This document shows, in pieces, positions 8,256 to 64,000 of a DNA stretch of 64,000 bases; the stretch's first letter is position 1, and each line of letters starts with the position of its first letter. A model generated the notes under the pieces. That model ran no database searches. It had not been told where the DNA came from and saw nothing but the letters and a program-made list of their open reading frames with translations. The stretch comes from Anthopleura xanthogrammica (taxonomy: Eukaryota; Cnidaria; Anthozoa; Actiniaria; Actiniidae), in NCBI GenBank assembly GCA_964019055.1, contig OZ025218.1, positions 9,430,170 to 9,494,169 on the forward strand. Reading direction: 5' to 3'. Both the position numbers and the translations under genes were made by a program.

Positions 8256-8393
8256 TTTCCCGCTAAAATTTTACGAGACCTATCACATGACAAATGGACC
8301 AATCACGATCCAGGAAATTGAAATTCCCGGGTTCTTATGAGCATGAAAATTTGGCGCGTATTTTATTTGGAATTTCTTGCTCGACTGTCGAAG
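8256..8393 (+). promoter_or_regulatory. PCNA promoter with E2F-like sites and probable 5' non-coding exon
   Basis: TTTCCCGC at 8256-8263 and TTTGGCGCG at 8350-8358 match E2F consensus sites on their respective strands, as expected for an S-phase gene. A good donor (AAG|GTAGGT) ends a putative non-coding exon at 8393. A matching acceptor (TTTTTTAG) at 9531 lies 37 bases before the PCNA ATG. The exon itself is inferred from these sites. Further E2F-like sites at 8921-8932 (GGCGCGGGAAAA) and 8941-8948 (TTCCCGCC) then lie inside this intron. Confidence 0.55.
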
Positions 8394-9568
8394 GTAGGTT
8401 TGAACAATCCTTCTCAATCCAAAGCCATCCTTGGCTGAAAGCTTTTATAATCTCCATACAAATCAAAGATAATCATTCTTTATTACTTATTCTTGTATAT
8501 CAAGCGACTTCTCGCTTTAAAATTTAAAATTTTGTGAGAAAAATTGTGCTTCTTAGAACTGTTTGGCTTATCAAGTTTGAAGTGAATGTCGCTGTAAAAT
8601 TCCTACTTTCGTCGACCGAATTATATATTTTTTATAATACTTTGTGAATCTAAGACGTATTAGAAAGTATTTCAATCAACATTTCTTTCTTCTAATTTGA
8701 TTATCGGTCTGTATTCTAGAAATCTTGCATCTCGAAGCCATTTCTCGATCGTCAAAGGAATTTACCCTCGATTCGTAATATTTTTTTATTCCACCTTCCA
8801 TGATCAAAGTCTGTTTGTTAATTCTAACTCTTTCTTCGTGTTAAGAGTGGGACCAAAAGTATTTTCGGAAGAATAATCGTTTAGAATATCTTTTCTTGTA
8901 AAATTTGTACTTTCCAAAATGGCGCGGGAAAAACGAAGAGTTCCCGCCATTTTCTTCAATGAACGATTGTTGGCAATTCCGATCAAAATATCAGCATTTT
9001 ACAGTTTTTGCTCGAAGAGATCGTACTTAAACCAAAAATGTGGCTTTATTTTATTGATTTTGGGTTGTTATCAGCCTCAGAGTGTCCACAAATGAAACTT
9101 GTCTTCTGTGTTGAGGTCGAATTGATTCGATCATAGTTTTATAATGACACGATTTTTGGGCAAATTTGGTAATAGTTCCTTCGATTCCACCTGGAAATCC
9201 CCCTCATGCTATTTCTGCAATCTAAATTTCTTCAGCTCAGAGAAATTTTTCCAAAATTTTTTTGTAAATTTTTTTATGAATTTTTTATGTTTTAACAATT
9301 TCATAGAAGTAATTCCTTGAACGAGCTAAATATTCTGCTTATTGAGCAAAATTTTAAGTTATGAAAAGCAGAAAAAATATGATTTTATATACCATATGAC
9401 CAACTTTATGCTTCATTGCTAAAGAGAAAAATGGATCTCATTTGCTGTTTCATTCTGGTGATTGTAATATTTTTTTCACATTTCAGCATTAATTCTGCTA
9501 ACAAAATCATTCCCTTTGCTTGGTTTTTTAGACTTTATTCTTTCTAAACACCTGCTTTGTGATCCAAA

Positions 9569-34800: not shown

Positions 34801-37800
34801 AGGTTCAATATTCATTTCCAGGTTCGTGCCACAGGGGGCCCAACACCTCAATCTACCACATCGTTTGTGATGGGCAACAGGACAGTAGGATCTGTCAACA
34901 GTGTAGGCCTCGTAGAGGCTCTCAATGTGGGTGTTTCAAATCTGACAGGCGTGGTACAGGCCTCTGATCCACAGGAAGGACAAGCTGTTGTATATTCTAA
35001 GGTAGGGTCTCAGTTGTGCTGTCTTCATCTGTTCATTACCATGCCATTAAATACTGTTTATAAGTCTCCCGGTAATGAGCCATCCTAGTTATAAGCCCTT
35101 TAGTCTGCTAATGTGAAAATGCCTCCAGTCATAAGCCCATCCTGTGGCATGCAGCAGTCATTATGTTGATGACCTATAAAATATTCTGATTTTCCATAAT
35201 TTATTACAGTGTGTATCCAAAAACCGTGGTCACCTAGAAATATTTCAAGAATGTTGCTTGACCAATCAGAAGAATTATTGTTATCTTTTTAATAAAGAAA
35301 TTTCGTTTTCATCCAAAACTCTTTATCCTTCTAATTATAAGCCCATCTCCCTCCGCTCCTCCCTCCCCCCACCCCCACCCAGTTATAAGCTTATCAAAAA
35401 TCCCTTATGAATGAGAGTACCTGGGATTGCAGTGCTCATGTAGTCTTTCCTTGTTATCTTCAGGATGTTATCATGGTACATGTGGTTGAGTTAGCTGGTA
35501 TACGAATATCATCCACATCAACCAACCTTGTCACAGGTACCAAGGTATGTATCCATGGTTACAATCTCCTTGGTTACTTCTGTTATGCTCTTAGTACAAA
35601 AACTTTGGTAGAATTTAATTATCACGTCTTGTAGGCTACCTGTGTTGCTGATTCTGTTTCACTCCTATATACCTTTCCTGAATTCGCTTGAATGGCCAGG
35701 AAACAATGGTTCCAAGTATCTGAGAGCTGCTGGTCTCTCACCTCTCACTCCTTGGGTATTACCAAGATCTCTGCCATCAAGGTTATTTTACTAGGTCTTA
35801 ACTGAGGTGATATTTTGTTATTTCAGATCAGTTTGTTTGCAACAGGATATGCAAATGAGTCACCATTCACATTTGCTAATGTTGTCCCTGGACTGGACTT
35901 CATCTGGAAATCAAGCAACCCTGATGTCTGTCAGCTCATGTCTACCTATCATAAGGTAATAATTCCCTAAATGGCATGAAATCAATACTTTACATGATCA
36001 AGAGCTTGTTATTGCCTTGATAACAACTTAACAATACCTTGACGACAACTTGCTGTACCCTGTCTACAACTTACCTATACCCTCCGAAACGTTCTGATAT
36101 CTTGCCAACAACTTACTGACAATGCATTACCAGTGTTGTACTGAAATACTGAAAACTTATCCATAACTTGTTGAAAGCTTACCGAGACCTTACCGAGACC
36201 TAACTGATACCTTACCAACAACCAAGCAAGGCCTTGTCTACAACATGTAATTTTTCTGGCTTACCAACCAGTTCTAATAACACTGATGGTTTGAAAAGAG
36301 GAAAATATTTACCAAGATAAGTTTGTATGAATGTGTTCCTTGTTTTCCAGAGTGGTATATCTGTAGAAAGTGAGCGAGATTTCCATGTTGAGCTACACTG
36401 TACCCACCCTGGACAGACAACCATACGTCTGACCCTTGAGATGCGTGACAAGCTGCATGGACAAGTAAAGGACACAGCTATTATCACTGATGAAATCACA
36501 TTCCAGGTAACTATTCTTGTGCATTATCATAGGGTTCTTTTCTCCCAAAACAAAAAAGAAGAGAACAAATATAAAAAATGTGACTCGGTCAAATCCATCC
36601 CAACTGAGTCCCGATTGGCAGGAGGCAAGCACTGTCACTGCTATAACCCACCCATTCTTCCTGATAATCTTGAAATAAAAGAATTGGCTGTGATGCCTGA
36701 ACAAATTTCTTTAAAACCAGTCTGTCCAGCTTTCCAGTTTTAGGGATGAAATATTAATTTCATATTACAGCACGATGCACAAAAGTATGACCACTTTTAA
36801 TGTATTCTGATACTTCTCTGCACAGGCTTTTGATGTGGTGTGTAAATAAGGTGTGTAAAGCTCGTTTGGCAGCAAAAAGCCTTGCATAGAAGTATGCAAA
36901 TACATTAAATGTGGTCATACTTTTGCATGTCCTGCTGTAAAATTAAGTTCTAGAATTATTTAGAAAAAAAAATTGTAGGTGTAATAATTTTGAATATATT
37001 TATTCTTTAGGTGTTTGAGAAACTTCTAGTTCTTTTTCCTGAGCATGGTTATCTGTTGCTGCCCCACAATGTTAACACCAGAATAAGAACCAACAGGTAC
37101 ACCCATACTCCGTTGATAATAGATCGTTTTCACTCACTTGACAAGCAGCCATAGTGCATAAATTGAAATAGATTTCAGTTCCCAGAGGATAGAAAACGTA
37201 TTGTTTAGGTACACCAATATGGCCGCTCTGACGTCCCATGAAAACAGTATATATCTTCTGGTTGGTGTTGCTTTTGCAGTTGTGGTTGTTTATGATGACA
37301 ATAGTAATCAATATGTTGTTCTCATGATCATTTCTGTTGGTGCTGTTAAGGTTGTCATTAATGTTGCTATTTACTTTGATGTTGCTGTTACTGTTGCTGC
37401 TGTTGTCATTATTGCTGCTGCACCTGTTGCCTGTGCTTGTTGTTACTGCTGATATCTGTGATTGCTGTTGTATGTTATAGCTGTGGGTGTTAAGGTTGTC
37501 GTTGTCTGCTTTCATTGCCTCTGATTGGTCAGCCTTAACTCTACTTGCCGTTATTTTAATGTCTCCCTCCTGTTCACCAGGGATGGTTCTGCACACATTA
37601 CCTATGAGCTCATCACAGGCTGTCCACAAAACAAGAGGATCACCACCACCTCATCTGTCGTGTTTGTTGACAAGGGTGGTCGAATATCAACCAGTACAGT
37701 CTCTGGGACAGCAGCGGTGTTAGTTACAGTACACGAGGAGTTCGGGACAAACCAGACTGCCTTAGTCCATGTAGAGGTGAGTAAATCTAGTTACAAGTCA

Positions 37801-40800
37801 TGTTTGATGATGTATCTTGGCATTTTTAGACACCTAATAGTGTTGACTGGGCTTCCTGTGTCTCAGACTGCTTGATTGAAAGCTGTTGTTTCTTTCAGGT
37901 CAAGGCTGTGTCATCACTATCTATCACATGTCAGTCACACGTGCGTGCAACATCAGGCAAACTGCATTCATTCCCTCTTGGGATGAATGCGCTATTTGTA
38001 GTTGTTCTCCATGACAACATTGGAAGGGAATTCCATTCAGCAGGGATACCACTGAAATACCGGTTAAACAGGTTTGTTACAAGTTGGTTTTCTTGTGCCT
38101 AAAAATTATAGAGTACTTCTCTAGCTTTTGTATGACAATAAAAAAACACACAAATATTTTGGGTACTAGATTACGCATTTCTGCACTATGCGCCATGTGG
38201 TATACATAAATAACAGTGCATGCCACATATTTGGTTCAGCCTTTTAGCTACACCATTGAGACTAATAAGATTCCTTCACAAAAATGCCAGTATTTCATCA
38301 GAAGCTATAGCTGTTGCTGTGTACATTTTGTTTACTCTTAGTAATACTTGTTCTAATGGTTTTACTGTTTAGGTTTGATGCAGTCCATATCGTCCCAGGA
38401 TCAGAAAATGGTACATTCTTTGCCCGTGCTTTGAACATTGGAGAAGCCATCTTTAAGGTTAGAATCTGTTTTGCTTCATACGGTTCAGTCATAATATTGC
38501 ATATACAGCAGAATACAATTCATTTAAAAAAACTCACAGCATGGACTTGCTGTGCCATGCCATGCCATGCTATGATCATGACGATGCGGTGTCCTAGCAA
38601 TTTGATTGGAGGAGCAAGGATGTCACATGACTGTGTGATTGGTTCAATGGATATGGTCCTTTCTGTACTATGATTGTGCCATGCTGTTTTCAATCCATAC
38701 AGAATCTACTTTATATTGCTGGGTTTCTATCAGCTGATAAAAGTCTTTGAATCTTATTATCTGCTCCAAATGGTGGCCAAACATTGCTAGAATGATATTG
38801 AAAACTTGTGATTTAGCTGACGAAAATAAAATGCCACTTGAGATGGGAATTTTTGTCAAGTGGAACTGAGCAATACATGAAAATTCTGTTATAGTATAGT
38901 TGAGCATGCAGTCAAACATTCATAGTACCCAGTTTTCATAATCAATTATACTTTAGGTAGGGAATTGGTCATGACCAACCAATGTCCATTTAATCAATAG
39001 GTATGGGATGGTAATTCACCTCATGTAACTGACTATGTCAGAATTAGAGTGGAGTATGGGCTGAGTCCCATGAAGGCTGTTCTTCTGTTGGGTATGGCTC
39101 AGCAGTTCAAGACAACGATATGGGCTGATGGTAAGGGGTTTTTTCTTCATTTAGCTGATCTTTTTGCACTCATTTACACCTCTATTAAGCGACCAATGTT
39201 TATGTAGCAACCAGTTGTCAAAGTCCAAAAGACAGTCTTTGAACTAATTTATATCTCTATTAAGCAACCAGCCCTTATTTTAGCAACCACTTGCCAAATT
39301 TCCAAAGACAGTCTTTGAACTAACTTATACCAATATTAAGTGTCCAGCCTCTTTTAATGGCCACATATGATAATTTTCTGCTTGTTAGAAGATTGTATAA
39401 TTATGCTTCAAAATATATAGTTTCCCACAGCATATGTTGTAAATTTTACCTAAAGTTTGTTTTCCAATGATTCCAGGTCAAGTAGGCAAGTGGTCGTCGT
39501 CCAACCCTGACGTCATCACCATCGACTCCAACACAGGTATGGCTGTAGCTTTATCATCAGGTTCAACAACCATCCACTACAAGATTCCTGGATACTTCTC
39601 TGCACAAACAGAAGTCAAAGTAGAGGGAATCTCAACTATTCATTTCACCTACGACAGCTCTAAAATCATCACTAATGTACCTCTCAAGGATGACCTCGGG
39701 TACATCATCCCTGTTGCCCTGAGCAATGATCACCAGTCGTCTGAGTATATCAGTTTCGTAGGTGATAAGGATGCCGTGGTCTTGTACGAGAGCCTAGGAT
39801 CTCATCCTCAGCATGTCATGTCTTGTATTCTGAGGTTCAGTTACGAGATTCATGGTTCAGTCAGAGCACGGGAACTTTTTGAGGCCAAGCCAGGATTAGT
39901 ATCAGGAAGACCAATGTGTTACATCATTCCACGGAGCACAACCTCCGTTGTTACCCTTGCTGCTGCCACTGCTGATAGCGAGTTGAATCTGATTGTTAAA
40001 GTCCATGATGAGGTTCATGATGATGACCTGTCGTCAGATCCAGTAGTATTGCCTTTTGTTCCAGCGTTTGCTTTAAGTACAACAGAAATTCATTTGAGTG
40101 GCGATAAAGAAGGAAAGAAGAAAACGGTGACTGTGATTGGTATACCAAGGCAGCTGACGGCACTTGTGGTAAGTATTATGAAGAGGAAGAGATCTTGATC
40201 ATCATGATAATGACAATAACAACGAGGATGATGATGGTGGTTGTGGTGGTTAGTGCCAAAGACAATGGTGACCATTATTATATGATGGTGATGATGATGG
40301 TGATGATAGTTGATGGTGATGATGATGATTAGGATAGTGGTGGTGGCTGATGGTGATGATGATGATGATGATATCGTTGATTAGTGTTACATTGAGATTC
40401 ATGTAGCATTTTCTATTATCAGGTCAAGCCACATGACAAGAATGTCCTACAAGTGAAAAGCCTGACGTCAGAAGAAAACAACCAAGCACTATACGAGATC
40501 TCTGGAATCAACACCCACGAATCCTTTAAAGAACATCCAGTCGAGTTTGTCAGTACTCTGACAGGACAAAAGAACATTGTTTATGTAACATACAAAAGAA
40601 CTGGTGCACCCCCTTTCATTGCCATGGCAACATGTCCCAACCCCGCTGATCCTCGATGCCCCAAGGTCGAGAAAGAAGTCCACTGGAGAAGGCTGTTTTT
40701 CTCCTTATTAGGTGAAACAAGTGCCTGGTTTATTGGATTCTCCATAATCATCGGCCTTATTATACTACTGCTTATTTTCTGCTGTAGTGATCGTACAAGA

Positions 40801-41121
40801 GGAGCTCAGCCAGCACAAGGACCATACCAGCCCTATGCACCTGGTAGTCCCTATCCAGGAACTCCCATGGGTACCCCCTACCCAGGTACCCCGTATGGAT
40901 CTGGGGACTCTGTATACGGTTCCCCTGGGACCAACCTTAGCTTGGATGGGTCTGGTAGTCAACGTAGAACTAAGTTTATGAGGTCTGAAGTAAAGCACCG
41001 TGTGACTAAGACAGCTACTGAAGGTGAAGATAACGGTATGGTAGAAGGTTCTCCTGGTTCTACCTCCCTAGGACGTTACTCTCCTACCTACCCTAGAGGT
41101 CTGTACAGTGTTACACAGTAG
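22656..41121 (+). CDS. NUP210: Nuclear pore membrane glycoprotein gp210
   Basis: Single-pass nucleoporin whose large lumenal part rings the pore in the perinuclear space. By my count 39 coding exons, 5991 nt, 1996 residues: 22656-22831, 22924-22988, 23470-23568, 23958-24089, 24553-24646, 24738-24801, 24982-25068, 25664-25796, 25892-26020, 26371-26439, 26750-26856, 27324-27482, 27859-28026, 28177-28332, 28781-28889, 29406-29501, 29608-29753, 30104-30215, 30714-30773, 30880-30938, 31386-31459, 31530-31638, 32057-32258, 32536-32642, 32988-33191, 33471-33599, 33967-34094, 34470-34680, 34822-35001, 35464-35544, 35827-35955, 36351-36506, 37011-37096, 37581-37776, 37899-38071, 38373-38457, 39001-39130, 39477-40168, 40423-41121. 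A signal peptide (about 1-22, LFLCLFFLFPSS) is followed by Ig-like repeats, including a BIG2-like WSSSNPDVITID near 1540. A transmembrane helix (about 1864-1885) and a 111-residue Pro/Gly/Tyr-rich tail follow. The ATG at 22656 was chosen over the in-frame ATG at 22575 because it starts the signal peptide. The donor at 27482 is the least certain. Confidence 0.95.
23217..23347. repeat. Near-perfect hairpin element (NUP210 intron 2)
   Basis: TAGATTCTCTCAAAACTAGT at the left pairs with ACTAGTTTTGAGAGAATCTA at the right, and inner arms AGATAAGAGAT and ATCTCTTATCT pair too. About 130 bp form one long hairpin, which suggests a young MITE. No clear target duplication was found. Confidence 0.75.
23650..23865. 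repeat. Dispersed repeat F-K, copy 1 (NUP210 intron 3)
   Basis: Contains ATCATGAATCATGGACAATT, a TTGATACAAGGATTTAAGGT stretch and ATTCATGAATCACGGACTT. The same blocks appear in reverse orientation at 48790-49025. Class unknown. Confidence 0.55.
24110..24240. repeat. F8 foldback repeat, copy 1 (NUP210 intron)
   Basis: CAGCTCAATTTGGAGGACAA followed by AACAAAAGAATT and a complementary TTTTGTTCTCCAAAT arm. Copies are at 53606-53708 and, split by an insertion, at 56964-57365. It is immediately followed by another palindrome (see 24232-24372). Confidence 0.6.
24232..24372. repeat. F9 foldback repeat, copy 1
   Basis: GTTTCAGTACGAGGCTCC pairs with GGAGCCTCACACTAAAACC across AATCACTGAGCATTTAGC. A second copy is at 29895-30049 in the same gene. 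The 124-residue antisense frame across it is not a gene. Confidence 0.5.
25112..25193. repeat. (TGAT)n microsatellite (NUP210 intron 7)
   Basis: Imperfect TGATTGAT repeat of about 80 bp. Related TCAT/ATTC-rich sequence follows to about 25345. Confidence 0.85.
25391..25545. repeat. Palindromic repeat with ATCACGTGAT arms (NUP210 intron 7)
   Basis: CATCACGTGATGGCAGTC at the left and GGCTGTCATCACGTGAT at the right form inverted ends about 150 bp apart. Single copy in this window. Confidence 0.45.
25803..25850. repeat. (AAT)n microsatellite (NUP210 intron 8)
   Basis: A run of ATAATA units about 48 bp long, just after the exon 8 donor at 25797. Confidence 0.85.
26929..27142. repeat. F7 foldback repeat, copy 2 (NUP210 intron 11)
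   Basis: TAGTCTCCTTCCCAATTCC and GGAACTATGAAGGGGACTA ends, with an inner AAGGCACAGCTACCTTTCAA arm, match 14353-14560 and 42920-43096. Confidence 0.65.
28367..28553. repeat. F5 foldback repeat, best copy (NUP210 intron 14)
   Basis: CAGGGCTTGAAATAACAGCTGG at the left and CCAGCCGTTATTTCAAGCACTG at the right are inverted ends; the middle has GGTCATTTTGACCA, itself a palindrome. Confidence 0.7.
29137..29320. mobile_element. F6 foldback element with 5-bp target duplication, copy 1
   Basis: A 184-bp element starting CAGGGCTCGAAATAG and ending GCGAGCCCTG, with direct TCATT repeats at 29132-29136 and 29321-29325. The second copy (46617-46800) is in the opposite orientation and is flanked by CACCC on both sides. 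Non-coding MITE in NUP210 intron 15. Confidence 0.75.
29895..30049. repeat. F9 foldback repeat, copy 2 (NUP210 intron 17)
   Basis: CACACACAAAGGTTTCAATG pairs with ACTGAAACCTTTGTGTGTGA, with GAGGCTCCGG and AGAGCCTGG inside. Matches 24232-24372. Confidence 0.65.
30155..30375 (+). repeat. Tandem duplication of the end of NUP210 exon 18 and its donor
   Basis: The block at 30155-30260 (last 61 nt of exon 18 plus the start of the intron) recurs at 30261-30364, 106 bp on, with few changes. A third partial start lies at 30365-30375. The second copy keeps a GT donor (GTATGT at 30322) and has gained ATTAG just before GTGGAGGACC. This leaves a possible 51-nt in-frame cryptic exon at 30271-30321. Confidence 0.8.
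32266..32507 (+). repeat. Tandem duplication of about 120 bp (NUP210 intron 23)
   Basis: GATTGGGCTACCTGTGGTGAG, GGTTGGGGGATGGGTGGGTAG and TATGTTATCTGCAGTTTTTAC occur twice, in the same order, about 120 bp apart. Purely intronic; the reading frame through it is a by-product. Confidence 0.75.
34743..34815 (+). repeat. tRNA-derived SINE head (NUP210 intron 28)
   Basis: GGAAGCACGGATGCCATAG and AGAGCATTCACACTTCGTCA match the head of the minus-strand SINE at 20160-20368. It looks truncated after the B-box-like AGGTTCAATATTC. Confidence 0.45.
35204..35310. repeat. F2 foldback repeat, half copy (NUP210 intron 29)
   Basis: TTACAGTGTGTATCCAAAAACCG followed by GGTCACCTAGAAATATTTCA resembles the left arm of 42162-42383; the right arm is missing. 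Confidence 0.5.
40195..40376 (+). repeat. (GAT/GGT)n low-complexity tract (NUP210 last intron)
   Basis: Imperfect GATGATGGTGATG repeats fill most of the last NUP210 intron, starting just after exon 38. Confidence 0.8.
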
Positions 41122-44764: not shown

Positions 44765-45303
44765 GTAAGATGAGCTCTAGCTTACTTCCCGTTTAAAAGT
44801 ATTAAAGTCTATACAGTTTCTAATAGTCTTTGGTAGACTGTTGAAGGCTTCGGCAGCATTGTCTTGGAAGATTCCTTTAATCAAAGGGACTGATAACTTT
44901 GTTTCATTAGAAGATCTAAGAGTTCTGCCAGGAGTATACTTCTCAAGTGGTATGTAGACTGTCTGGCCAGTGTTCAAAATACAATGCTTTGAATGTAGTG
45001 TTGAGCAGATGTAGTTGTCTCCGTTCTGTAATGGGCAGCCATCCAAGCTTTAAACAAACTTCTTCACGTCCATAACGCCCATAGACAAATCCCGCACATA
45101 CATTCTGAACCCGTTGTAAGCGTTTCATTTGATATAACGGTAGAGGATGAAATACAATACATGAATAGTCCACTTTCGAAAGTATGAGGGTTTCAATTAG
45201 CAGTTTGCGCACATGAAAAGGTGCGAGATTGCGAAGCTTCTTTAGTATAGACAATGTTCCATAGCACGAAGAAAGGAGTGTGGTTATATGATTGTTCCAC
45301 GAA
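44765..45303 (-). pseudogene. Non-LTR retrotransposon reverse transcriptase fragment, C-terminal part
   Basis: Two overlapping minus-strand frames (45254-44943 and 45046-44777) encode pieces typical of the end of a LINE reverse transcriptase, with LIETLILSKVDY, MKRLQRVQNVCA and LGWLPITERRQLHLL in one frame and PLIKGIFQDNAAEAFNSLP in the next. A frameshift separates them. The upstream part continues at 46420-46228 beyond an inserted element. The exact LINE clade (CR1- or jockey-like) is not settled. It is a dead copy. Confidence 0.75.
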
Positions 45304-46227
45304 TAGTCAGGTCTGTTAGCGACAAAAATAGCAAAGATCGTGCACGTTTGAGTACAAGCACCAAACTTTGCACAAATGTTCCTTGGGTCATACTAAACGA
45401 ATTTAGGGCTGGCTGCCAAAAAATCGCGGTCGGGGGAGGCACGCCACACTCTCAATTAGATTTCATCAAAATTTATATGAAACGGAACACTTTCCTTCAA
45501 GTTTTAACTCTAATATGGAAGAGTTGTTTAAAAAAGTCAGAATGGCATTTACAGTTTGTTGATATCAAAAGTTTTCCAGATATGCAAATTAGCGAATGAT
45601 GACGTAATCAGTCATAAAATGTTTTATATATCTGTAGAAATAAGACTGAAATGATCCACTCTATGACCATAGGGGATGATTCTTACAGCCATTTCTTCAA
45701 TATCTAATTAGAAAGAGGTATTTTGTAATTTTTGTTTAAAATAGCTGTCTGGGCACAGTTTTCTTTCAATTGTAAGTACTTAAAGCTTTGCTCATGCATC
45801 TGTTTTAAAAAGTACATTAATCATGTGAAGTTTTAGTCATTTTGTCTTATTTTTACAGAGAAATTCTTTATTATATGTCTTGTTAACTGACTCTGTCCAG
45901 CCAATGAAGTCATCAGTTGCTAATTTGCATATTTGGAAAACTTTTGATATCTCTGCAACAAAAAGATATAAAAAACTGTAAACGCCATTCTGACTTTTTT
46001 AAACACTGCACTTCCATAATAGCGCTAAGACTTGAAGGAATTCTCTTTCTTTCATATAAATTTTGATAAAGTTTATCCATCTAGTAGAGAGTGTGGCGTG
46101 CCTCCCCCAGACCACCATTTTTTGGCACCCACCCCTAAATCTGTTTAGTATGCCCCAACGAACATTTGTGCCAAGTTTGGTGCTTGTACTCAAAAGTACA
46201 CAATCTTTTTGCTAACAGACCTGACTA
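45304..46227. mobile_element. F3 foldback element with long inverted arms, copy 1 (inside the LINE)
   Basis: Left end TAGTCAGGTCTGTTAGCGAC and right end GCTAACAGACCTGACTA are inverted; the arms stay related for about 300-400 bp (ACAAGCACCAAACTTTG, GGAGGCACGCCACACTCTC). The TA at each edge fits a Tc1/mariner-type TA target. It separates two pieces of one reverse transcriptase. No transposase frame was seen. Confidence 0.75.
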
Positions 46228-49242: not shown

Positions 49243-51591
49243 TTAGAGCAAGGCTAAAAGCAGGCTGCTTCTTCTTTGTCCATAAATATTATTCAATGGA
49301 GTTAAAGTATCAGAATTCTCACTGCTGCTGGCGTCATTCTCCTCCAAGTGGTAGCAGAACTGTTTGTGTGTTGAAACGTAATGCTCAAAGAAACGGCACT
49401 TCTCCATGTGAGCTGCCATTCCTGGGCTATTGGAATGGATCCAGTTGTCAACAGTGGTGAAAGATGTGGAGAAAAACCATTTCTGAAAAATCAAAATGGA
49501 CAAGATTTCTTAGAATTTATCACAAGCTTAACCTGATAGCCTCACTTTGATGTAAAATAACACACAAATTGCAACTTTTTCATTCTTGATTTAGCATGAA
49601 ATATTTGGCTGCACCCCTTTTTAGTTGACCCTTTGGGATGAACACACCCATCATTTGGAGTGGCTTTTTAATCCAGAATCCTCTCCTTTACCAACTACAC
49701 CCACTCCCCCCATGCATAACCATTTAGATAACCAGCCTCTACTCATAGGAGTGGCTACAAGTTATTATTAATGCCTGAATGGAACCAATGAATTAAACAA
49801 TTAAACATTCTCTAGTGCAAAGCCAACCCCTCCCCACCCCTGTAATTTGCATCAGATACTACACATACCTAATCTGACAGTAATGGATTACAAATTTTCC
49901 ATGCATTAAGTTTCAGTATTTCTATTTTTCATAGTCCAAATATATTATCAAAAATTTAGCATGGCTACAATATTATTATCCTAAGTATAAATATGTTATT
50001 ACTTTACCGTTTGTCTTACTTGCCATGACCACAGGCCATCGTCATAGATCCTCTTCTCCCATTCCAGTGTCACCATTCCTTTTCTCTCCACTATTCTCTG
50101 GCATACCTCGCGCAGTGTTTTACTAGTGCGGCTAAAGTTACACAAGCTAAATCCATCAAGCAGTCCAGCAATTTTCTCTAAAATCTCTATTGGCAGAGAG
50201 CTGAGGAAATCCGTGTCTGTCTCGTTGTAGACCTGATGAGGGCAATAATGTTCACGTTCTTCCCCGTCTTGCATACATGGTCTGATTCCAAAGCTCCCAA
50301 GATCTTGGCTAAAAACAACTTGTCCACACTGGTTTCCTGGGAGAAGTCTATGATGAACAAACGTGCAACCATACTGCGCTAGAGGACAACGATGCTCAAG
50401 CCATCCATTTAGACCGCCATGAATTTCACTATGGACATTTTTAAAGTGCGAGCCATATTCATTTCTTCGCAAGACTTGATTACAGGGAATTGAATACATC
50501 GGGAGCTGTTTTTGAAACTTCGGTAGAGTCTCCAACATTACATTCAAACCTAACGGTTCCTCTAAATAAATGTCTACGAATCTGGGTGGATTGTAGAAGA
50601 TTTTTTCACTTGGTTCTTCGTCCACTTTAGTAGAACACTCATTCTGGCCAATAACACTTGAAAGGTCATCTGATTGATCTTTATTAACTTCATGCGATTC
50701 GAAACATTCAGAAATGATTTCAGGACTCAATAATATATCTTCTTGCGTTTGTGAGCCTTTTTCGTTGTCAGGAATGCAGCTTTCAGAGCCTTCTTCAGAT
50801 CCACGTGTATTTGATAAGCTATCAAATCTTAATTCCTCCATTCGAGGATCCAGCTGTGAAAATCCATCGCCACTTGATATTTTCTCATTCGGATCAGCTG
50901 TGTTTTGAATCAAAATATCCGACTTATATTCCGTAGCATTGGTTTTCAACAGGTCTTCTTTAACTCGTAAAATGTCATCTTCTGAGTTAGGATTATTTTG
51001 TTGTGATTCTATGTTGTGTTTTAGCGGCTTCATCTGGTATTCTAAAGAGGACAAAGCCAGCGCCATATCAATCTGTGTGTTCAACTGTCTGTGGTTTGTT
51101 TCGCTATCATTCTCTTCATTCAAACTTGAAGACCTCTGATTATGAAGTCTTTGAATATCTACTTTAGATTTTCCTTTACGAAGACGTCTTTTAAAGACAT
51201 CTTCTAGTACCTTTTGGTCCCGTAAAGCAAGTTCAACGTCGAGTTGGCCTTTGACGAGAACCGGGTTCGGCTGAAAAAAAGGTACCCAGGCTAACCTTGA
51301 TTTTGAATAAAGAGGATAGCGATTCCACTCCATCGTACAAAACACATTACTAGCCGGGCAAACAGCTAAATGCTTTCCAATTCTATCTCTCTGGATTTTC
51401 ATAGGGCAACCATAAGCAGCGTTCGAACATGGGACAATTTCTTTAGGACAAATAAACAGATGATCGTCCAGTTTACACCTATGCATGCGACTACAGCATT
51501 TGAACGGACAGTAAAGCATCTCACATGTCTTGGTATTAGAGCAGTTTTGCTTGATGCAAGTTGAGCAGTGTTCGTGGGATTCTTTATCCAT
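49243..51591 (-). CDS. FBXO30: F-box protein with TRAF-type zinc finger, FBXO30/FBXO40-like
   Basis: Probable substrate receptor of an SCF ubiquitin ligase. Two coding exons: 51591-50008 (528 codons) and 49482-49243 (79 residues plus stop), 607 residues in all; human FBXO30 is longer, about 745. The N-terminus is a Cys/His-rich TRAF-type finger region (about residues 9-85: CSTCIKQNC, CPFKCCSRMHRCKLDDHLFIC, CSNAAYGCPM, HLAVCPASNVFC). A Ser/Glu-rich, probably disordered linker covers roughly 140-335. The F-box is at about 462-498 (FLSSLPIEILEKIAGLL). The C-terminal domain crosses the splice (SWQVRQT|KWFFSTSFTTVDNW) and has the HMEKCRF motif of the family. The donor ACG|GTAAAG was chosen over CAA|GTAAGA because it keeps the W-to-W spacing. 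Divergent from APH-1. Vertebrate FBXO30 and FBXO40 are paralogues, so the symbol is nominal. Confidence 0.9.
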
Positions 51592-52231
51592 CGTGGTTTC
51601 TCTGTGATCGGTTATATTTAAGGTGTTTAATATTTAGTTGAAGTACCCGGAGCCTCTTTTGTGCTGGAAAAACTTTGACTGAAGAATATTTATTTACTTG
51701 GATGGGCAACACCGCGAACCAAAAATACCGCAACTACACTACACTACCCAACATCCTTTGCGGTCTCTCCCTATTTTTTTCTTTTTTTTTCCCAAAAAAA
51801 TAAATTTCTCGAGAAAAAAGACAACCATAAGCAAAATTCTAGAGCAACCTTTCATTTTCTTTCTATACCCTTTTTTCTTGAATCAAAATTTTTGATTTAT
51901 TGAATTAATATAATTGATAATTATTATATTTATCTCTTATTCAAATTCCCAAAAGATAGGTTTTTTTTTTTTTACAAATTATTCCTAAAGCGCAGAAAAA
52001 TATATTTCAGGAATTTAAAGGAATTCGAAAGAAGAAAAGTGAAAAAAAAACCATGAGGGTAAATATTCCCCAGAATGCATTTGTTCCCAATGACGTCATT
52101 CTGTCATGGCGGAAGGAAGGAAAAGCAGAAGATGAAAAAGAACCACTGATTCAGACAAATGATGCTTTACCGACTTATTAGACATTAATATCGTATTTTT
52201 CGAACGAAAATCAAAAGACTAAGTATTCAAG
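51592..52231. promoter_or_regulatory. Divergent FBXO30-like/APH-1 promoter with CRE and ETS/YY1-like sites
   Basis: 640 bp between divergent start codons. TGACGTCA at 52091-52098 is a perfect palindromic CRE. Just downstream TCATGGCGGAAGGAAGG (52104-52120) combines a YY1-like ATGGCGG and an ETS-like GGAAG core, suggesting the APH-1 start region. The FBXO30-like side has no clear motif. Factor binding is inferred from the sequence only. Confidence 0.55.
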
Positions 52232-55023
52232 ATGACTCTTATGGTATTTTTTGGCTGTGCTTTGATAGCTTTTGGCCCGGCTTGTGCCATGTTTTCAATC
52301 ACTGTAGCAGGCGATGCTCAGCAAGTCATCGTCTTCATCACAAGGTTTGTTTGGCAACTCTTCCTCTTCAAACAAAACTCACGGCTTGGAAATTAAATTT
52401 TAGATAAACTAATCTTTACTTTAGTTAAATTTGTTATTCTTCTGTTTTGAACCAAGTTTTGAAGAAGAATTCTTCAATAAAGTAACTTAGCTTATGACTT
52501 TTCGGAGATTTGATGCTCGAGTTTTTGAAAAACAATTAAGGAGAAGTTTAAACGGAATCAACGATACTGAAACAGCAGAATGAAAAGATTGAAGTGTTGT
52601 TTTACTTTGTTATTTTACAGTGCATTCTTCTGGCTAGTATCTCTGCTAATATCATCGATATGGTGGATGGTAGTATCTCCCTTAAAGGAGCAGTTGGCCT
52701 TTGGGATGACATTTTCAGTCCTGTTTCAAGAGTTGTTCCGATTAGCGTACTATTTTCTGTTAAGGTTGGTATGAACTAATGGTATCAGTAGCTTTGATGT
52801 AGTACTTAGTACTTGAAGTAGCTGTCATCAGATATCTTGACTTTTTCTTTCCCGGCGTGATCAATCAAATTCCTTTTGTAAATTTGATTTAATTCGATTT
52901 TTTTATCTTGCTTGGCACCAAAATTTCATTAATTCATGCCGATTACTCTGGTAAAATATGGTACTTCCCCCCCCCCCCCCCCCCCATTCCACCTCACCCA
53001 TGATCAAGACATCGCTAAACTTATTATTGCAGCTACAGTAGTTTAAAAAGCATCAATAATGGGATTGATATTCCTAGTTTGAACAATAAATGTGTAATAA
53101 AGAAATAAGTGAATCATGTACTTAGAGCACTTATTCTGACTCCAGAATCTGGTGTTTTGGCTTCCATAAATCAAATTTATAATAATCCCAGTTCCTTCTG
53201 ATCTAGCGATAAAAAATTCCTTGGTGAAGATGTCTTTTGAGTCACAGGAATTTTCTTATCTCTCAATAGAAATGAACTCAGCTTGTCATAAGTTCGATTG
53301 ACACAAGCAAAAATGCTAGTTATCTGGAGTCAGTTAGGTTGCATGGATATGAAAAGTGCTGGAACTGATGTTTAATTTAAGCATTAGTTCTTTGTCAGCC
53401 TAAAGAAGCACCGTGCTAACATGCTTATGATGGTGACTGTGGAGTACGAGCATCATCACTTTGTATTTTAGTTTCTTATATCATGCTTATATCTCTATAG
53501 AAAAGCAGATGAGGGCTTGGTATCAATGATCAATAACCAGTCACCTTTAAGAAAACACAGGATTGCATATGGTAAGGAAAAACTTAATTGTTATTGTATT
53601 CATCCCTTGCACTTGACGTCACAGCAGCTCAATTTGGAGGACAAAACAAAAGAATTTGAAACCTATAGTTTTTTCCTCAAAATTGAGCTGCATTTCAAAG
53701 TTCTGCAATGAGTCTATCGTAATATTTGATCTCATTACCAGCGTACACTGTACATTGCACACAAGTGCAAATAAAGGGTTTTTTGGAGTATGAAAAAGGT
53801 GTTTATTTTTTTGTATGTTTTTGCTCAGTTGCTGGTCTAGGATATGGTATAATGAGTGGGCTGTTTGCCATGGTTAATGTTCTTGCTGATATTGCTGGAC
53901 CAGGATCAATGGGTCTGAAGGGAGATCCACAGAATTTCCTTATAGTATCTGGTAAGTCAGACTGATACACATACATACACCATCCCCCCCCTCCCCCAGA
54001 ACTGGACCAGAAAAGAGGTCTGGCATATTTGTAAACTCTGGGGCGAGAGCTACTAATACCAATAATTGATGCGTGTAGTCCATCCATCATCTAAAAGACA
54101 TACTGCACGCAAATGTGTGTAATGAATTAATGGACTGCATCCAACTTACATGCATGGACACCGTGACAAACTTCTGGGCTGTACTGTAAACAATTTTTGT
54201 TAACATGTATTTTGTTAGTATGTTGTTGTCTAAGTGTAGTTTACATTTTGTTTTGTAGCTTTCTTGACATCTTGTTTTGTCTTGTTGAATACCTTCTGGG
54301 GAGTGATATTGTTTGAGTCCTTTGACAAGAAAAAGAGGTGGCTCAACCTGGGTATTGTGGTGTTCTCTCATCTTTTTGTGTCTTTAATGGTAAGTTACAT
54401 ATTTGTTTGACTTTCATTTGACTTTGATCAACCCAAGGGCTGTATAAGGGTTTGATCTATGTATTAGCCATGCCCTGACTATCAGCCCAGAGGTTGTTTC
54501 AGGGTTCGATCTGTGAGTTAGCCATGCCCTGACTTAGATCAGCCCAGAGGTTGTTTCAGGGTTCTATCTGTGAGTTAGCCATGCCCTGACTTAGATCAGC
54601 CCAGAGGTTGTTTCAGGGTTCAATCTGTGAGTTAGCCATGCCCTGACTTAGATCAGCCCAGAGGTTGTTTCAGGGTTCAATCTGTGAATTAGCTACATGT
54701 ATGCCCTGACTTAAATCAGTCCAGAGGTTGTTTCAGGGTTCCTTCTGTGAGTTAGCTGTCCCCTGACTTAGATCAGCCCAGAGGTTGCTTCAGGGTTGAA
54801 TAAAATGGATGTTTTTGTGATGAAGTTTAATCAATCATCCTTTTCAATTTTTTCCCAGACATTACTGAATGCTAAGCATAACTACATTGCTACATTAGTA
54901 TCAGCATATCTGGTTATGATCATCATGGGTATCATTGCATTTAACTCTGCTGGTGGAAGTTTTTTGAATATCTACTGGATGTTAACCAAGAAATCACAAT
55001 CAAGAGATCTTAACCATGAATAG
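52232..55023 (+). CDS. APH1A: Gamma-secretase subunit APH-1
   Basis: Scaffold subunit of gamma-secretase, the intramembrane protease that cleaves Notch and related proteins. Six coding exons: 52232-52344, 52621-52764, 53501-53571, 53829-53951, 54259-54389, 54859-55023; 747 nt, 248 residues (human isoforms 247-265). The start VFFGCALIAFGPACAMF, AFFWLVSLLISS, ADEGL and the strongly conserved GxxxGxxxG helix at G112, G116 and G120 (GLGYGIMSG, then NVLADIAGPG) are diagnostic. The protein is nearly all membrane-spanning, with seven segments expected. The LLNTFWG stretch has Asn161 where I recall a conserved His (His171) in human APH1A; the second family His appears kept at 188 (FSHLF). The fifth intron holds a 57-bp minisatellite. 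A candidate AATAAA is at 55502-55507, after a repeat. Confidence 0.95.
53132..53337. repeat. F-H foldback repeat, copy 2 (APH-1 intron)
   Basis: CTGACTCCAGAATCTGG and TATCTGGAGTCAGTTAGG are the inverted ends; inner words match 3555-3766. Confidence 0.6.
53606..53708. repeat. F8 foldback repeat, copy 2 (APH-1 intron)
   Basis: CAGCTCAATTTGGAGGACAA and CTCAAAATTGAGCTGCATTT arms around AACAAAAGAATTTGAAACC; related to 24110-24240. Confidence 0.65.
54428..54797 (+). repeat. 57-bp minisatellite, about six units (APH-1 intron 5)
   Basis: Units with GCCCAGAGGTTGTTTCAGGG, TGTGAGTTAGCCATGCCCTG and ACTTAGATCA repeat at 54541, 54598, 54655, about 54718 and 54775, mostly every 57 bp. Single units of the same sequence lie at 4822-4870, 48672-48762 (reverse) and 63812-63925, so it was amplified from a dispersed repeat. 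Confidence 0.85.
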
Positions 55024-59988: not shown

Positions 59989-60323
59989 GCATCTTTTAAT
60001 GATTGATGACGTCATCATTCGCCAATTTGCATATTTGGGAAACTTTCGAAATCTCTGCAACAAAAAGAGATATCAACAAACTGTAAACGCCATTCTGACT
60101 CTTTTAAACAACTCTTCCATGTTAAAAGGTTTTCGTTTGATATAAATTTTGATGAAATTTATCCGTCTAATTGAGAGTGTGGCGTGCCTCCCCCCGACCA
60201 CCATTCTTTGGCACCCATCCCTAAATCTGTTTAGTATGCCCCAACGAACATTTGTGCCAAGTTTGGTGCTTGCACTCAAAAGTGCACGGTCTTTGCTATT
60301 TTCGTCGCTTACAGACCTGACTA

Positions 60324-61609
60324 TATGCTCCGTTACTCGCGCTTTGAATCTTTTGAGTTTTGGGAGGAAGTCCCCAAGTTTTGTGAGAAGCGAGTTTTTT
60401 CTCGCAGTTAGGGGGATGACTGAACAGGGGTCAGATGGACTAATATGGGAGATCTGCGTGGTCGCTGTAGGAATAGGCTCTCCCATATATCTTAATATCT
60501 TAAATCAGGATGGGCCAATAGGACGGCTGGACCGACGGTGTGAGAATAAATTACTTTTCAAATTGTCCGCAAAGTAGGTGGCCTTGAAGTTGTTCACTAA
60601 AATAGACTATTACGAAGGCAGGTGTTCATGAAAAGTCATTTTGTGCTCGACAAGAAAATTTTCACTCAGGAGAATTTCCCAAACTTATATAAAGTTCTGA
60701 TTATCATAGTTGTTATGATTTCGGATTGTTTTTCCATCCCTAGGTGCTAGAAATCAAACATTTATGGCATAATTCTATAGACCTAATCGGCCAACGCGTT
60801 GCTATGCACGTTTCCACCCAATTCAAATCCTCTGGGAATAAGATTCTTTGTCTGTCGTATTTCGATATCACATGGAAATTTTTTGGAACAAAAGTTCTTC
60901 TGTGCAAATAGACCGATTTAGCTTTGTCGTAAATATGTTTTCCCAAGGAAAATGTACAAAATGTAAAATATATGCATAAACATGTTTGTGTTCCTAGGGA
61001 ACTTTGTTTGAATTGTATCCATTTTCATGTCTTCTCGTGCATAAACATTAAACAAAGAAATGATCCCCTAGGGATCTGAATTGGGAAAACATTACACCAT
61101 AGCTAAATTGGTCTATTGGTAAGTTCTTCAAATTTCCTTCTAACTTGGTGAACTTGAAGTTTACCAAATCATAGATAAAAGAGGGGGACTAGGTCGGGTC
61201 AGTCATTTTGGTGTTCGATTTTATACTCAAATCTAGATTTAAAAAGTTTTACAAGAAAATTTTCACTTCGGAGAATTTCTGAATATTCTAAGTTAAAGTT
61301 ATTTACAGTTGTTTTGATCTCGTTTTGTTTTTTTCATCACCTTAGCACTAGAAAACAAACACTAATAGCATGATTCTATCATGTCTTTGTTTCTCGCTTA
61401 TCTGACGTAAATTCAGAATTTTTTAATCGAAACCAGCGAATGGCTGAATTCTGAAAATCGGATGATCAGAGGTCTTTTGACGTAGATATGGCTTCCGACT
61501 GAGAAGGGAGGGAGGGAGGGCTTCATAATAGTTATACTCACCTCCATCGGATTAAACTAACTTTTGCATCGAGTGAAAGAGTTGCTCACGGAGAAATTTT
61601 GACAAACCT
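60324..61609. other. Intergenic DNA upstream of the micro-exon gene
   Basis: Contains a degraded F1 copy at about 60778-60912 and a better one at 60906-61117, then AT-rich single-copy DNA with a (GGGA)n patch near 61510. The promoter of the downstream gene should be in the last few hundred bases, but no TATA box or other clear motif was found. Confidence 0.5.
60906..61117. repeat. F1 foldback repeat, copy 4
   Basis: AAATAGACCGATTTAGCTTT and AGCTAAATTGGTCTATT ends, with the ATTAAACAAAGAAATGAT inner arm of the F1 family. Confidence 0.65.
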
Positions 61610-63708
61610 ATGAAGATGAGGAAACTAAAGGCTTGCCTGATTTTGTCTGTTCTAATACTGAGTATTGGTAAGTTTCCTATTTTATTTAATGTTATTTAGT
61701 ATTATTGGGAAGTTGGTCAAAGTTTGTCCGTCGGTGTAGTTTTCTGTAGTGCATGAGTAACGTCGTGCAGTCCTTGCAAAGAATGCAATCCAAAAAAACT
61801 TAAGCTTGCGTATAGATGTTTTGAAATCTCCATAATCTGTGATGTGATTTTAATCGGTAAAGAAATAACGAGATATGTCCAAAAAAAACTTAAATTAGTT
61901 AGTTAATCTCAACTGAACTTCACTGACTAGCATCTCTAGTAACGTTTAAATATGACATACCGTCATTCGTTTCTCGGGAAAATTCCCTGAAATTCGTATA
62001 GATCCAGATCTAAGCCTGCTTGGGTTTTGATCGCACTATGACATTCAAACTTTTACGGTTTCATGCAGGTTCGTTCTCGCAATTGCAAACGACCACAGCA
62101 TTAGGGATTGAAGGTAAGAAGTACTGATATCAACTTTTTATTGTTGGTTCCATTCAGGAATGAAACATTTTCCCATAATTTTGAGATATTTTTACTATTA
62201 TATGTCGTAGAATCTCTTCAAAACAAGGCTGAGGCAACCACTGCTGCTGCACAAACAAAAGGTGAGTCTGCGAAAGGAAAATCTTAGAATGAAACATTTT
62301 TCAATAATTTTGAGATATTTCTATTATATTTCGTAGAATCTCTTCAAACCAAGGCAGAGACAACCACTGCTGCTGCACAAACAAGAGGTGAGTCTGCGAA
62401 AGTGAATCTTAGAATGAAACATTCATGTTCCCATAATTTTGAGATATTTCTATTATGTTTCGTAGAATCTCTTCAAACCAGGGCCGGTGACAGAACCACT
62501 GCTGCTGCTCCACAAACAAGAGGTGAGTCTGCGAAAGTGAATCTTAGAATGAAACATTCATGTTCCCATAATTTGAGATATTTCTATTATGTTTTGTAGA
62601 ATCTCTTCAAACCAGGGCCGATGACAGAACCACTGCTGCTGCTCCACAAACGAAAGGTGAGTCTGCAAAAGTGAATCTTAGAATGAAACATTCGTGTTCC
62701 CATAAATTTGAGATATTTCTATTATGTTTTGTAGAATCTCTTCAAACCAGGGCCGGTGACAGAACCACTGCTGCTGCTCCACAAACAAGAGGTGAGTCTG
62801 CAAAAGGGTAATCTTAGAATGAAGTATCGTTCCATAATTTTGAGATATTTCTATTATATTTTGTAGATGAATCTCTTCAAACCAAAGCCGGTGACAGAAC
62901 CACTGCTGCTGCTCCACGAACAAGAGGTGAATCTGCAAAAGGGTAATCTTAGAATGAAGTATCGTTCCATAATTTTGAGATATTTCTATTATGTTTCGTA
63001 GAATCTCTTCAAACCAGGGCCGGTGACAGAACCACTGCTGCTGCTCCACAAACAAGAGGTGAATCTGCAAAAGGGTAATCTTAGAATGAAGTATCGTTCC
63101 ATAATTTTGAGATATTTCTATTATGTTTCGTAGAATCTCTTCAAACCAGGGCCGGTGACAGAACCACTGCTGCTGCTCCACAAACAAGAGGTGAATCTGC
63201 AAAAGGGTAATCTTAGAATGAAGTATCGTTCCATAATTTTGAGATATTTCTATTATATTTCGTAGAATCTCTTCAAACCAGGGCCGGTGACAGAACCACT
63301 CCTGCTCCAAAAACAAGAGGTGAGTCTGCAAAAGGGTTATCTTAGAATGAATTATCACTCTATAATTTTGAGATATTTCTATTATGTTTCGTAGAATCTC
63401 TTCAAACCAGGGCCGGTGACAGAACCACTGCTGCTCCAAGAACAAGAGGTGAGTCTGCAACTGAGGTAATCTTAGAATGAATTATCGTTCCATAATTTTG
63501 AGATATTTCTATTATACTTCGTAGAATCTCTTCAAACCAGGGCCGGTGACAGAACCACTGCTGCTCCAAGAACAAGAGGTGAGTCTGCAACTGAGGTAAT
63601 CTTAGAATGAATTATCGTTCCATAATTTTGAGATATTTCTATTATATTTCGTAGAATCTCTTCAAACCAGGGCCGGTGACAGAGCCACTGCTGCTCCAAA
63701 GACAAGAG
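61610..63708 (+). CDS. Predicted secreted protein built from 12 tandem micro-exons (3' end beyond window)
   Basis: Not recognised. Exon 1 (61610-61667) encodes a signal peptide, MKMRKLKACLILSVLILSI, with no stop before a GTAAGT donor. Exon 2 (62069-62113) encodes GSFSQLQTTTALGIE. Twelve near-identical exons follow: 62211-62261, 62337-62387, 62466-62522, 62600-62656, 62735-62791, 62867-62926, 63002-63058, 63134-63190, 63266-63319, 63395-63448, 63525-63578, 63655-63708. Lengths are 51, 57, 60 or 54 nt; all are multiples of three and phase 1-1, so any exon can be skipped in frame. Each encodes a unit close to ESLQTRAGDRTTAAAPQTR, rich in Thr, Ala, Arg and Gln and possibly O-glycosylated. Introns of about 75 bp are also repeats, with GTGAGT (or GTGAAT) donors and TCGTAG-type acceptors. 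The true 3' exon lies outside the window or was missed. An ATG at 61616 is an alternative start. Expression is not shown by the sequence. Confidence 0.7.
62211..63708 (+). repeat. Tandem array of exon-plus-intron units (about 130 bp x 12)
   Basis: Exon starts are spaced 126, 129, 134, 135, 132, 135, 132, 132, 129, 130 and 130 bp. Each unit holds one 51-60 nt exon and one intron with TAATTTTGAGATATTTCTAT near its end. Units 3-8 are nearly identical; units 1-2 (first to array) lack the GDR and Pro codons, and units 9-12 lack one Ala codon, suggesting stepwise unequal crossing-over. Confidence 0.9.
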
Positions 63709-64000
63709 GTGAGTCTATATGAAAGGAAAATCATATTCAACAAAACTTCAACAATTCTAATAGCAAATCTTCCAAGTCTAAAACGTTAGATATTAATTCG
63801 ATCTGTATGCTAGCCTGACTTGGATCAGCCCAGATGTTGTTCAGTTCAGGGTTCGATCTGTGAGTTAGCCGTGCCCTATATAACTTTGAGCACTGAGCCC
63901 AGATAGTGGATGTTTCAGGGTATCAGTTTTTCAAGTAATTTGTACAAAGCTGCTCTCTATAGAAAAGAGGCGTAAATCCTATCGCATGCATGAATTCAAA
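63709..64000. other. End of window: intron of the micro-exon gene or its 3' flank
   Basis: After the donor at 63709 the intron-type repeat stops. A dispersed unit of the 57-bp repeat (GCCCAGATGTTGTT, GATCTGTGAGTTAGCC) lies at 63812-63925. No further exon with a phase-1 acceptor could be assigned. Confidence 0.5.

Follow-up and report, generated by a model that had tools for sequence, protein, structure and literature searches.

We analyzed a 64,000-nucleotide stretch of the genome of the sea anemone Anthopleura xanthogrammica (the window; positions 9430170-9494169 of contig OZ025218.1, here C13), which carries close to its end an array of 12 tandem exon-intron units preceded by a signal-peptide-like first exon and a linker exon. 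When the 14 exons are joined, they form a single open frame of 255 residues without a stop. With about even confidence, we read the array as the body of a young, apparently lineage-restricted, stand-alone gene for a short predicted secreted protein made of Thr/Ala-rich repeats. The evidence for this reading, and for the three alternatives that we weighed against it, is given below.

Structure of the exon array and its predicted protein

All 12 units were located between window positions 62211 and 63708 (Table 1). Every repeat exon is preceded by AG, begins and ends in phase 1, and is a multiple of three in length (51-60 nt), with the donor reading GTGAGT in nine exons and GTGAAT in three. The 11 internal introns span 75-78 nt and are all of the GT-AG type, and for nine of them reading through the intron breaks the frame. 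An earlier note, made from the letters of the window, had described the array in these terms together with the two exons in front of it, and our analysis recovered each of these elements, in 12 of 12 units and with the leading exons in a joint open frame. Tandem Repeats Finder independently placed the array at 62158-63716 with a period of 132 and 11.9 copies. Since each unit is a phase 1-1 exon, any of them can be gained, lost or skipped without a shift of frame. The phase symmetry and the multiple-of-three lengths were inherited from one ancestral exon and are therefore not 12 independent coincidences. Micro-exons usually stay below this size or just reach it, so "mini-exon" is the fairer term. 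As the donor of exon 12 is intact, a further exon must lie downstream of the array. The window ends 292 nt past the last repeat unit, and while the array model of the earlier note stood, its description of the gene was incomplete, giving no terminal exon.

The start of the gene was assessed against chance. Under a simple rule, 17 of the 2639 ATGs on both window strands open a signal-peptide-like start, and only exon 1, counted from the ATGs at 61610 and 61616, combines such a start with a phase-1 donor of at least 7.5 bits, with the caveat that the thresholds, including 7.5 bits, were chosen after exon 1 was seen. An in-frame stop lies upstream of its start codon at 61574. Using a donor matrix trained on the 23 donors of the neighboring downstream gene (gene 2, see below), we obtained 7.7-9.7 bits for the 14 donors of the array compared with 4.5-10.6 bits for those of gene 2, and 12 of the 13 array acceptors fell within the leave-one-out range of gene 2 (0.6-15.8 bits). 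The donors of units 6-8 (62926-63190) have a +5 G-to-A change in common, and the resulting GTGAAT scores 7.7 bits against 9.7 bits in most others. Because they share this weakened donor, units 6-8 may be more easily skipped, which suggests these exons as a first guess if any are skipped at all. The idea that the linker exon is a diverged thirteenth unit was unsupported, since equal scores arose in 1165 of 5000 protein shuffles and 3738 of 5000 DNA shuffles.

Comparison of 11 units revealed that neighbors tend to be alike (0.96 for units 3/4, 0.99 for both 7/8 and 10/11), compared with 0.74-0.75 for units 1-2 against unit 10 (0.74 for 2/10), and that units differ by as much as 26%. Unit 5 is closer to units 7 and 8 than to unit 6. 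Homology to the repeat introns extends over the final ~55 nt of the intron preceding unit 1, and this implies that the duplicated block ran from intron to intron. Such a block, combined with alike neighbors, supports the pattern expected from unequal crossing-over, the mode of growth that the earlier note had proposed. Two other repeats were noted. Just upstream of exon 1, ~130 nt are duplicated with 75% identity (60650-60778 and 61251-61379), perhaps as part of the promoter region or as a dispersed repeat. A 57-bp minisatellite forms tandem arrays in both orientations at window positions 54419-54801 and 63783-63921 and at L007:4617-5101 (for sites past the window end, the window coordinate equals the L007 position + 63530), and a short stretch related to it lies ~75-110 nt 3' of the last repeat exon.

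The chain that follows residue 22 comprises 233 residues, including 50 Thr, 46 Ala, 39 Arg plus Lys, and no cysteine, which agrees with the Thr/Ala-rich repeat described before. Its calculated pI is 11.2 and its composition is strongly hydrophilic. Secreted mucins carry long Ser/Thr/Pro-rich tandem repeats that are heavily O-glycosylated; here Thr or Ser make up 63 of 233 residues (27%) and Ala 20%, with 11 Pro, so the chain is Thr-rich and Pro-poor. As the earlier note had held, the repeat has no known domain: no Pfam family matched the array protein at E<=0.1, and this includes Stereocilin, of the mesothelin/stereocilin family. From its composition, the chain may be unfolded and perhaps O-glycosylated, a spacer or a protein of mucus or matrix with a length that would be set by exon number. 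In our proposal, a signal peptide would be followed by a ~230-residue chain of twelve 17-20-residue repeats, unfolded and possibly O-glycosylated, that would act as an extended spacer or as a component of mucus or matrix, and its length would matter more than its exact letters. The gene would grow and shrink through unequal crossing-over between near-identical introns. Two other identities were rejected. Cnidarian neuropeptide precursors contain repeated peptide copies, each with an amidation or dibasic cleavage site, and by eye the 12 units hold no Gly-Arg, Gly-Lys or dibasic site. Antifreeze-type Thr-Ala repeats were dropped because the runs are too short.

Table 1. Positions of the array gene, its candidate last exon and the first exons of gene 2 (window coordinates or window equivalents)
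Feature	Position	Strand	Remarks
Exon 1, start codon and signal-peptide-like N-terminus MKMRKLKACLILSVLILSI(G)	61610-61667	+	58 nt, phase-1 end, donor GTAAGT
Exon 2, linker GSFSQLQTTTALGIE	62069-62113	+	45 nt, phase 1-1, acceptor -0.5 bits
Intron before unit 1	62114-62210	+	3' ~55 nt homologous to repeat introns
Repeat exon 1, ESLQNKAEATTAAAQTK	62211-62261	+	51 nt
Repeat exon 2, ESLQTKAETTTAAAQTR	62337-62387	+	51 nt
Repeat exon 3, ESLQTRAGDRTTAAAPQTR	62466-62522	+	57 nt
Repeat exon 4, ESLQTRADDRTTAAAPQTK	62600-62656	+	57 nt
Repeat exon 5, ESLQTRAGDRTTAAAPQTR	62735-62791	+	57 nt
Repeat exon 6, DESLQTKAGDRTTAAAPRTR	62867-62926	+	60 nt, donor GTGAAT (weakened at +5)
Repeat exon 7, ESLQTRAGDRTTAAAPQTR	63002-63058	+	57 nt, donor GTGAAT
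Repeat exon 8, ESLQTRAGDRTTAAAPQTR	63134-63190	+	57 nt, donor GTGAAT
Repeat exon 9, ESLQTRAGDRTTPAPKTR	63266-63319	+	54 nt
Repeat exon 10, ESLQTRAGDRTTAAPRTR	63395-63448	+	54 nt
Repeat exon 11, ESLQTRAGDRTTAAPRTR	63525-63578	+	54 nt
Repeat exon 12, ESLQTRAGDRATAAPKTR	63655-63708	+	54 nt, intact donor GTGAGT
Candidate last exon	from about 64068 (L007:538)	+	acceptor 10.9 bits, adds Glu-Ile-stop
Gene 2 signal exon	64793-64859	+	same signal exon starts the Actinia tenebrosa orthologue
Gene 2 exon 2	from 66928	+	entered in phase 1, acceptor 6.6 bits

Searches with the array and with positions 61610-62210 as DNA queries, in which the best candidates were scored, found one place only in the 289.8-Mb assembly (125 contigs). 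A protein search of the assembly with 96 residues of the repeats returned 10 places in the array and three elsewhere (C1, E=0.006; C10, 0.11; C4, 0.15), all three within long open repeat frames. We rejected the C1 place as a relative of the array, since 617 of 3000 unit shuffles score equally and the likeness is no more than composition gives. In this region (C1:17008830-17016899; L042:1831-6042 and 7255-9900), two long Thr-rich, mucin-like open repeat frames adjoin each other; the second (L042:7255-9900), which is Thr/Ala-rich, has a 20-residue unit near GSAETTGRMQKTTAAPGATT that is like the array repeat in composition only. On the minus strand of C13, at 9599921-9600580, a 33-nt minisatellite codes for a Pro/Thr-rich repeat (about TTQPRPGVPSV) within one open frame of at least 319 codons and has thus grown inside one exon, unlike the array. 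Among the matches listed from open-licence papers, neither the array gene nor a cnidarian gene of such kind was described.

The putative transcript end and the stereocilin-like genes downstream

A stand-alone gene would most likely end shortly past the window, in a small last exon of its own. Among 25 acceptors listed from the array to exon 2 of gene 2, the candidate, L007:538, has the second-highest score, and an ATTAAA lies 114 nt past it at L007:652. In the 1084 nt before gene 2 there is no AATAAA, which counts against an end at this place, although 1.2 would be expected by base composition and the absence is unremarkable.

Gene 2 lies on the same strand and starts 1084 nt past the array, beyond the window and hence beyond the view of the earlier note, which did not mention this stereocilin-like gene of compatible phase. 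It spans C13:9494962-9509108 (L007:1263 to L008:5508) and comprises 24 exons with 23 of 23 junctions of the GT-AG type and a single open frame of 1088 residues. Its product matches Pfam Stereocilin (PF21058) at 8.1e-17, over the curated cut-off, and ends by eye in a hydrophobic tail like a glycosylphosphatidylinositol (GPI) signal. Members of the mesothelin/stereocilin/otoancorin superfamily are predicted to be superhelical and GPI-anchored; the authors suggested that they bind sugars of extracellular glycoproteins, and mesothelin binds MUC16 (PMC2628672).

These features raise a second explanation, in which the array is an alternative 5' end of gene 2. Exon 12 would be spliced to exon 2 of gene 2, and another promoter would give a short form with the gene's own signal peptide. 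The long form would be a 1321-residue GPI-anchor-like protein with a superhelical ectodomain capped by a Thr/Ala-rich stalk of variable length. The arrangement is compatible with such a product, as the array and gene 2 lie on the same strand only 1084 nt apart, both enter exon 2 in phase 1, and the join stays open over all 1321 residues; the absent AATAAA also fits, as does a seemingly repeated Ser/Pro-rich second exon (L008:7174-7490, by eye) right after the signal exon of gene 3, a paralogue described below. However, the phase match by itself has a one-in-three chance, and eight acceptors between the array and exon 2 outscore the latter. Moreover, the sole annotated orthologue that was found, A. 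tenebrosa LOC116305230, opens at gene 2's own signal exon, and therefore gene 2 does not need the array. When the fused protein, and its alignment with this orthologue, were used as queries, that orthologue alone was found and no fused relative. The array has no similarity to the mesothelin/stereocilin superfamily and is linked to gene 2 by position, strand and phase only. We thus regard the alternative 5' end as possible but unlikely, and lean towards a stand-alone gene. If the array did feed gene 2, it would show how a mesothelin-type surface protein gains a variable stalk.

With regard to gene 2 itself, the protein search returned a single relative, the A. tenebrosa orthologue (78% identity), which suggests that the family evolves fast. 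The predicted structure of this orthologue, at a mean predicted local distance difference test score (pLDDT) of 41.7, was too poor for a fold search, and a sequence search of the PDB gave two weak matches to SMAD3 and one, at 4.1e-4, to a chain named HeliScrew4. Within intron 1 of gene 2, just 5' of exon 2 (L007:3112-3320), we observed 2.8 copies of a 75-bp repeat, two of them with high-scoring acceptors (TTTCAG) that are possible decoy splice sites. Gene 3 is a diverged tandem copy of gene 2 at about C13:9510774-9522709 (L008:7174 to L010), with 200 N inside (L009). It is the one other stereocilin-like gene in the 261.5 kb around the locus, and none lies in the window.

Possible constraint on the frame

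We found that all 63 pairwise gaps among the exons are 3 or 6 nt, whereas the 70 gaps among the 11 internal introns measure 1, 2 or 4 nt throughout. The exon gaps come down to only about three independent events (6, 3 and 3 nt). Counted as events by eye, indels in threes amount to 3/3 in exons versus 0/4 in introns (Fisher about 0.03, by hand). On a tree of the 11 units we counted 22 exon and 33 intron changes, yet zero stops and zero GT/AG losses, for which the chances without selection are about 0.52 and 0.18, respectively.

Several observations weigh against a functional stand-alone gene. Including the intron before unit 1 adds one intronic indel of 3 nt and weakens the Fisher value to about 0.07. 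The exon changes are spread evenly over codon positions (6, 9 and 7) and look neutral, and the per-site rate is 0.41 in exons versus 0.44 in introns. Nonsynonymous differences (pN 0.085) against synonymous ones (pS 0.133) give a ratio of about 0.64, summed over non-independent pairs. With two other genes as training and stops left out, frame 0 has a codon score of 0.189 against 0.347 and 0.230 for the others, and the acceptor of the linker exon is an outlier. Lastly, the array protein had no match at E<=10 among 8000 scored candidates of the database; only candidates that share exact 5-residue words with the query and have 0.55-1.75 times its length were scored, such that a diverged or much longer array could escape. 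The frame-0 codon score is higher than the maximum of 0.127 reached by 2000 sampled windows of 12-28 kb. Codon usage was nevertheless rejected as proof of coding, since frame 0 comes first (0.41) only if the training set includes gene 2 and stops are penalized.

Taken together, the frame appears to be kept and the protein letters appear unconstrained, with the indels and splice sites hinting at constraint. This combination would fit a disordered chain for which length and composition matter. It would also fit a gene that has only just lost its function. The third explanation is a once-real gene that is now dying or non-functional, its array persisting as a minisatellite with the frame still open. 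The neutral-looking exon changes, the lack of support from codon usage, the missing annotated relative and the weak linker acceptor are all as such a gene would have them. Against it, the 14 exons show no stop, frameshift or GT/AG loss even though units differ by up to 26%, and the joint neutral chance is roughly 0.003 (0.52 x 0.18 x one-third cubed, calculated by hand and post hoc) if the three in-frame indels are independent. We therefore consider a dying gene rather improbable.

The remaining explanation, a plain non-coding tandem repeat in which the exon reading is coincidental, or coding on the minus strand, appears extremely unlikely: the unit length of ~132 nt is divisible by three, which means that a frame without stops in one unit can remain open over many, and a 267-codon minus-strand frame (62678-63481) does reach 25.2 bits to Pfam DUF488 against the family's curated 22.2, but its DUF488 and Tom37 matches rest on no stretch that passes alone (the best DUF488 stretch has 21 residues), its codon score is -0.18 versus 0.41 for the spliced plus frame (gene 2 in the training set), it crosses intron stretches whose indels are not in threes, and the signal exon, linker and donors are left unexplained.

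Elsewhere in the window we noted ordinary conserved neighbors, namely PCNA (9563-11035, +), NUP210 (29550-41121, +) and, in a single long frame, an F-box gene that has a TRAF-like zinc finger (49999-51633, -). Of three further open reading frames (44943-45392, -; 45246-45599, +; 60073-60504, -), by eye one resembles a reverse-transcriptase remnant and two resemble each other; those at 44943-45392 and 60073-60504 had no Pfam match. No Rfam family was found in the window.

Relation to repeated-exon genes of other organisms

Symmetric short exons in tandem are familiar from collagen-type and elastin-type genes, which code for repetitive extracellular proteins. The array differs from these in that it has neither Gly-X-Y nor an elastin motif, and its copies are near-identical in their introns too.

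The closest architecture found in print is that of the polymorphic mucins of Schistosoma mansoni (SmPoMucs) and of the micro-exon gene (MEG) MEG-4, followed by the leucine-rich-repeat (LRR) arrays of Tetrahymena. The SmPoMucs are proteins of the mucin type; towards the 5' end of their genes a small in-frame exon of 27 bp stands in 0-20 tandem copies, and splicing is alternative (PMC4015677, a review). In the anemone gene model, 12 tandem copies of a small in-frame exon also lie towards the 5' end, but the exons are 51-60 nt rather than 27 bp and one locus was found rather than about ten genes. The array protein had no relative among the 8000 candidates scored in the protein search; no direct alignment with a SmPoMuc was made. 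The S. mansoni 10-3/MEG-4 gene is described with 81-bp repeats, 27-bp exons and variable 5' parts (PMC4015677), and SmMEG-4.1 is Thr-rich with confirmed O-glycosylation (PMC3723592). The MEG-4/10.3 antigen resembles the predicted array gene in its signal peptide, tandem repeated small exons, Thr-rich hydrophilic repeat region and variable sequence 5' of the repeats. It differs in its 81-bp repeats, 27-bp exons, Thr/Pro repeats and hydrophobic C-terminal tail with a conserved motif, none of which was seen in the array gene (PMC4015677, PMC3723592).

Schistosome MEGs in general have 10-20 exons that are very short (6-81 bp) and for the most part divisible by three, introns of 0.1-5 kb, a hydrophobic/aromatic motif that directly follows the signal peptide and closes with a basic residue, and secreted, alternatively spliced products (PMC10526429). 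The 12 exons of 51-60 nt and the 45-nt linker fall within this exon range. By contrast, the 11 internal introns of the array, at 75-78 nt, lie below the intron range, and GSFSQLQTTTALGIE stands after the signal peptide in place of the motif (by eye). The likeness to schistosome MEGs put forward in the earlier note thus holds for the tandem-exon architecture and fails for intron length and post-signal motif; a link by sequence, which that note did not claim, was not found in our searches either. Because exon size, intron length and post-signal motif differ and the sequences are not linked, we do not assign the array gene to the SmPoMucs or MEG-4. It is like them in anatomy, and membership is unsupported by sequence.

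The Tetrahymena study describes tandem arrays of 90-bp exons in LRR genes, with recent species-specific growth for which unequal crossing-over was proposed (PMC6564038). An array there means at least three consecutive exons of one size class and one phase, and the 12 phase 1-1 exons of the anemone form such a series (PMC6564038). The Tetrahymena exons, however, are exactly 90 bp, in phase 2 and LRR-coding, whereas those of the anemone are 51-60 nt, in phase 1 and without a Pfam match; Tetrahymena is also a ciliate with thousands of such genes and introns of ~257 bp in T. thermophila, compared with 75-78 nt here (PMC6564038).

The array thus combines an orphan sequence with a gene architecture of a known kind, and the literature matches listed describe no such case in its phylum. 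By analogy, it might be an independently arisen sea-anemone counterpart of the schistosome polymorphic mucins, with a length-tunable, fast-evolving, Thr/Ala-rich repeat region of skippable exons beside, and perhaps spliced onto, a GPI-anchored, superhelical protein of the mesothelin/stereocilin type, from a family for which binding of mucin-type sugars was proposed. We regard this as a long shot. If true, one locus would yield a short receptor together with a version on an exon-counted stalk, or else a receptor along with its mucin-like partner, and unit number would vary between individuals, as for allorecognition or mucus-surface diversity. The array would also make a clean system in which to follow a coding repeat as it grows exon by exon, and to ask whether near-identical exons are skipped or counted by the cell. 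Such arrays may well be overlooked or collapsed by gene finders and short-read mapping, and similar genes may consequently be under-annotated. In schistosomes, tandem small in-frame exons in secreted Thr-rich proteins feed surface-protein diversity; a compact cnidarian case, with 75-nt introns, 51-60-nt exons, one locus and an orphan sequence, would suggest that this design arises repeatedly.

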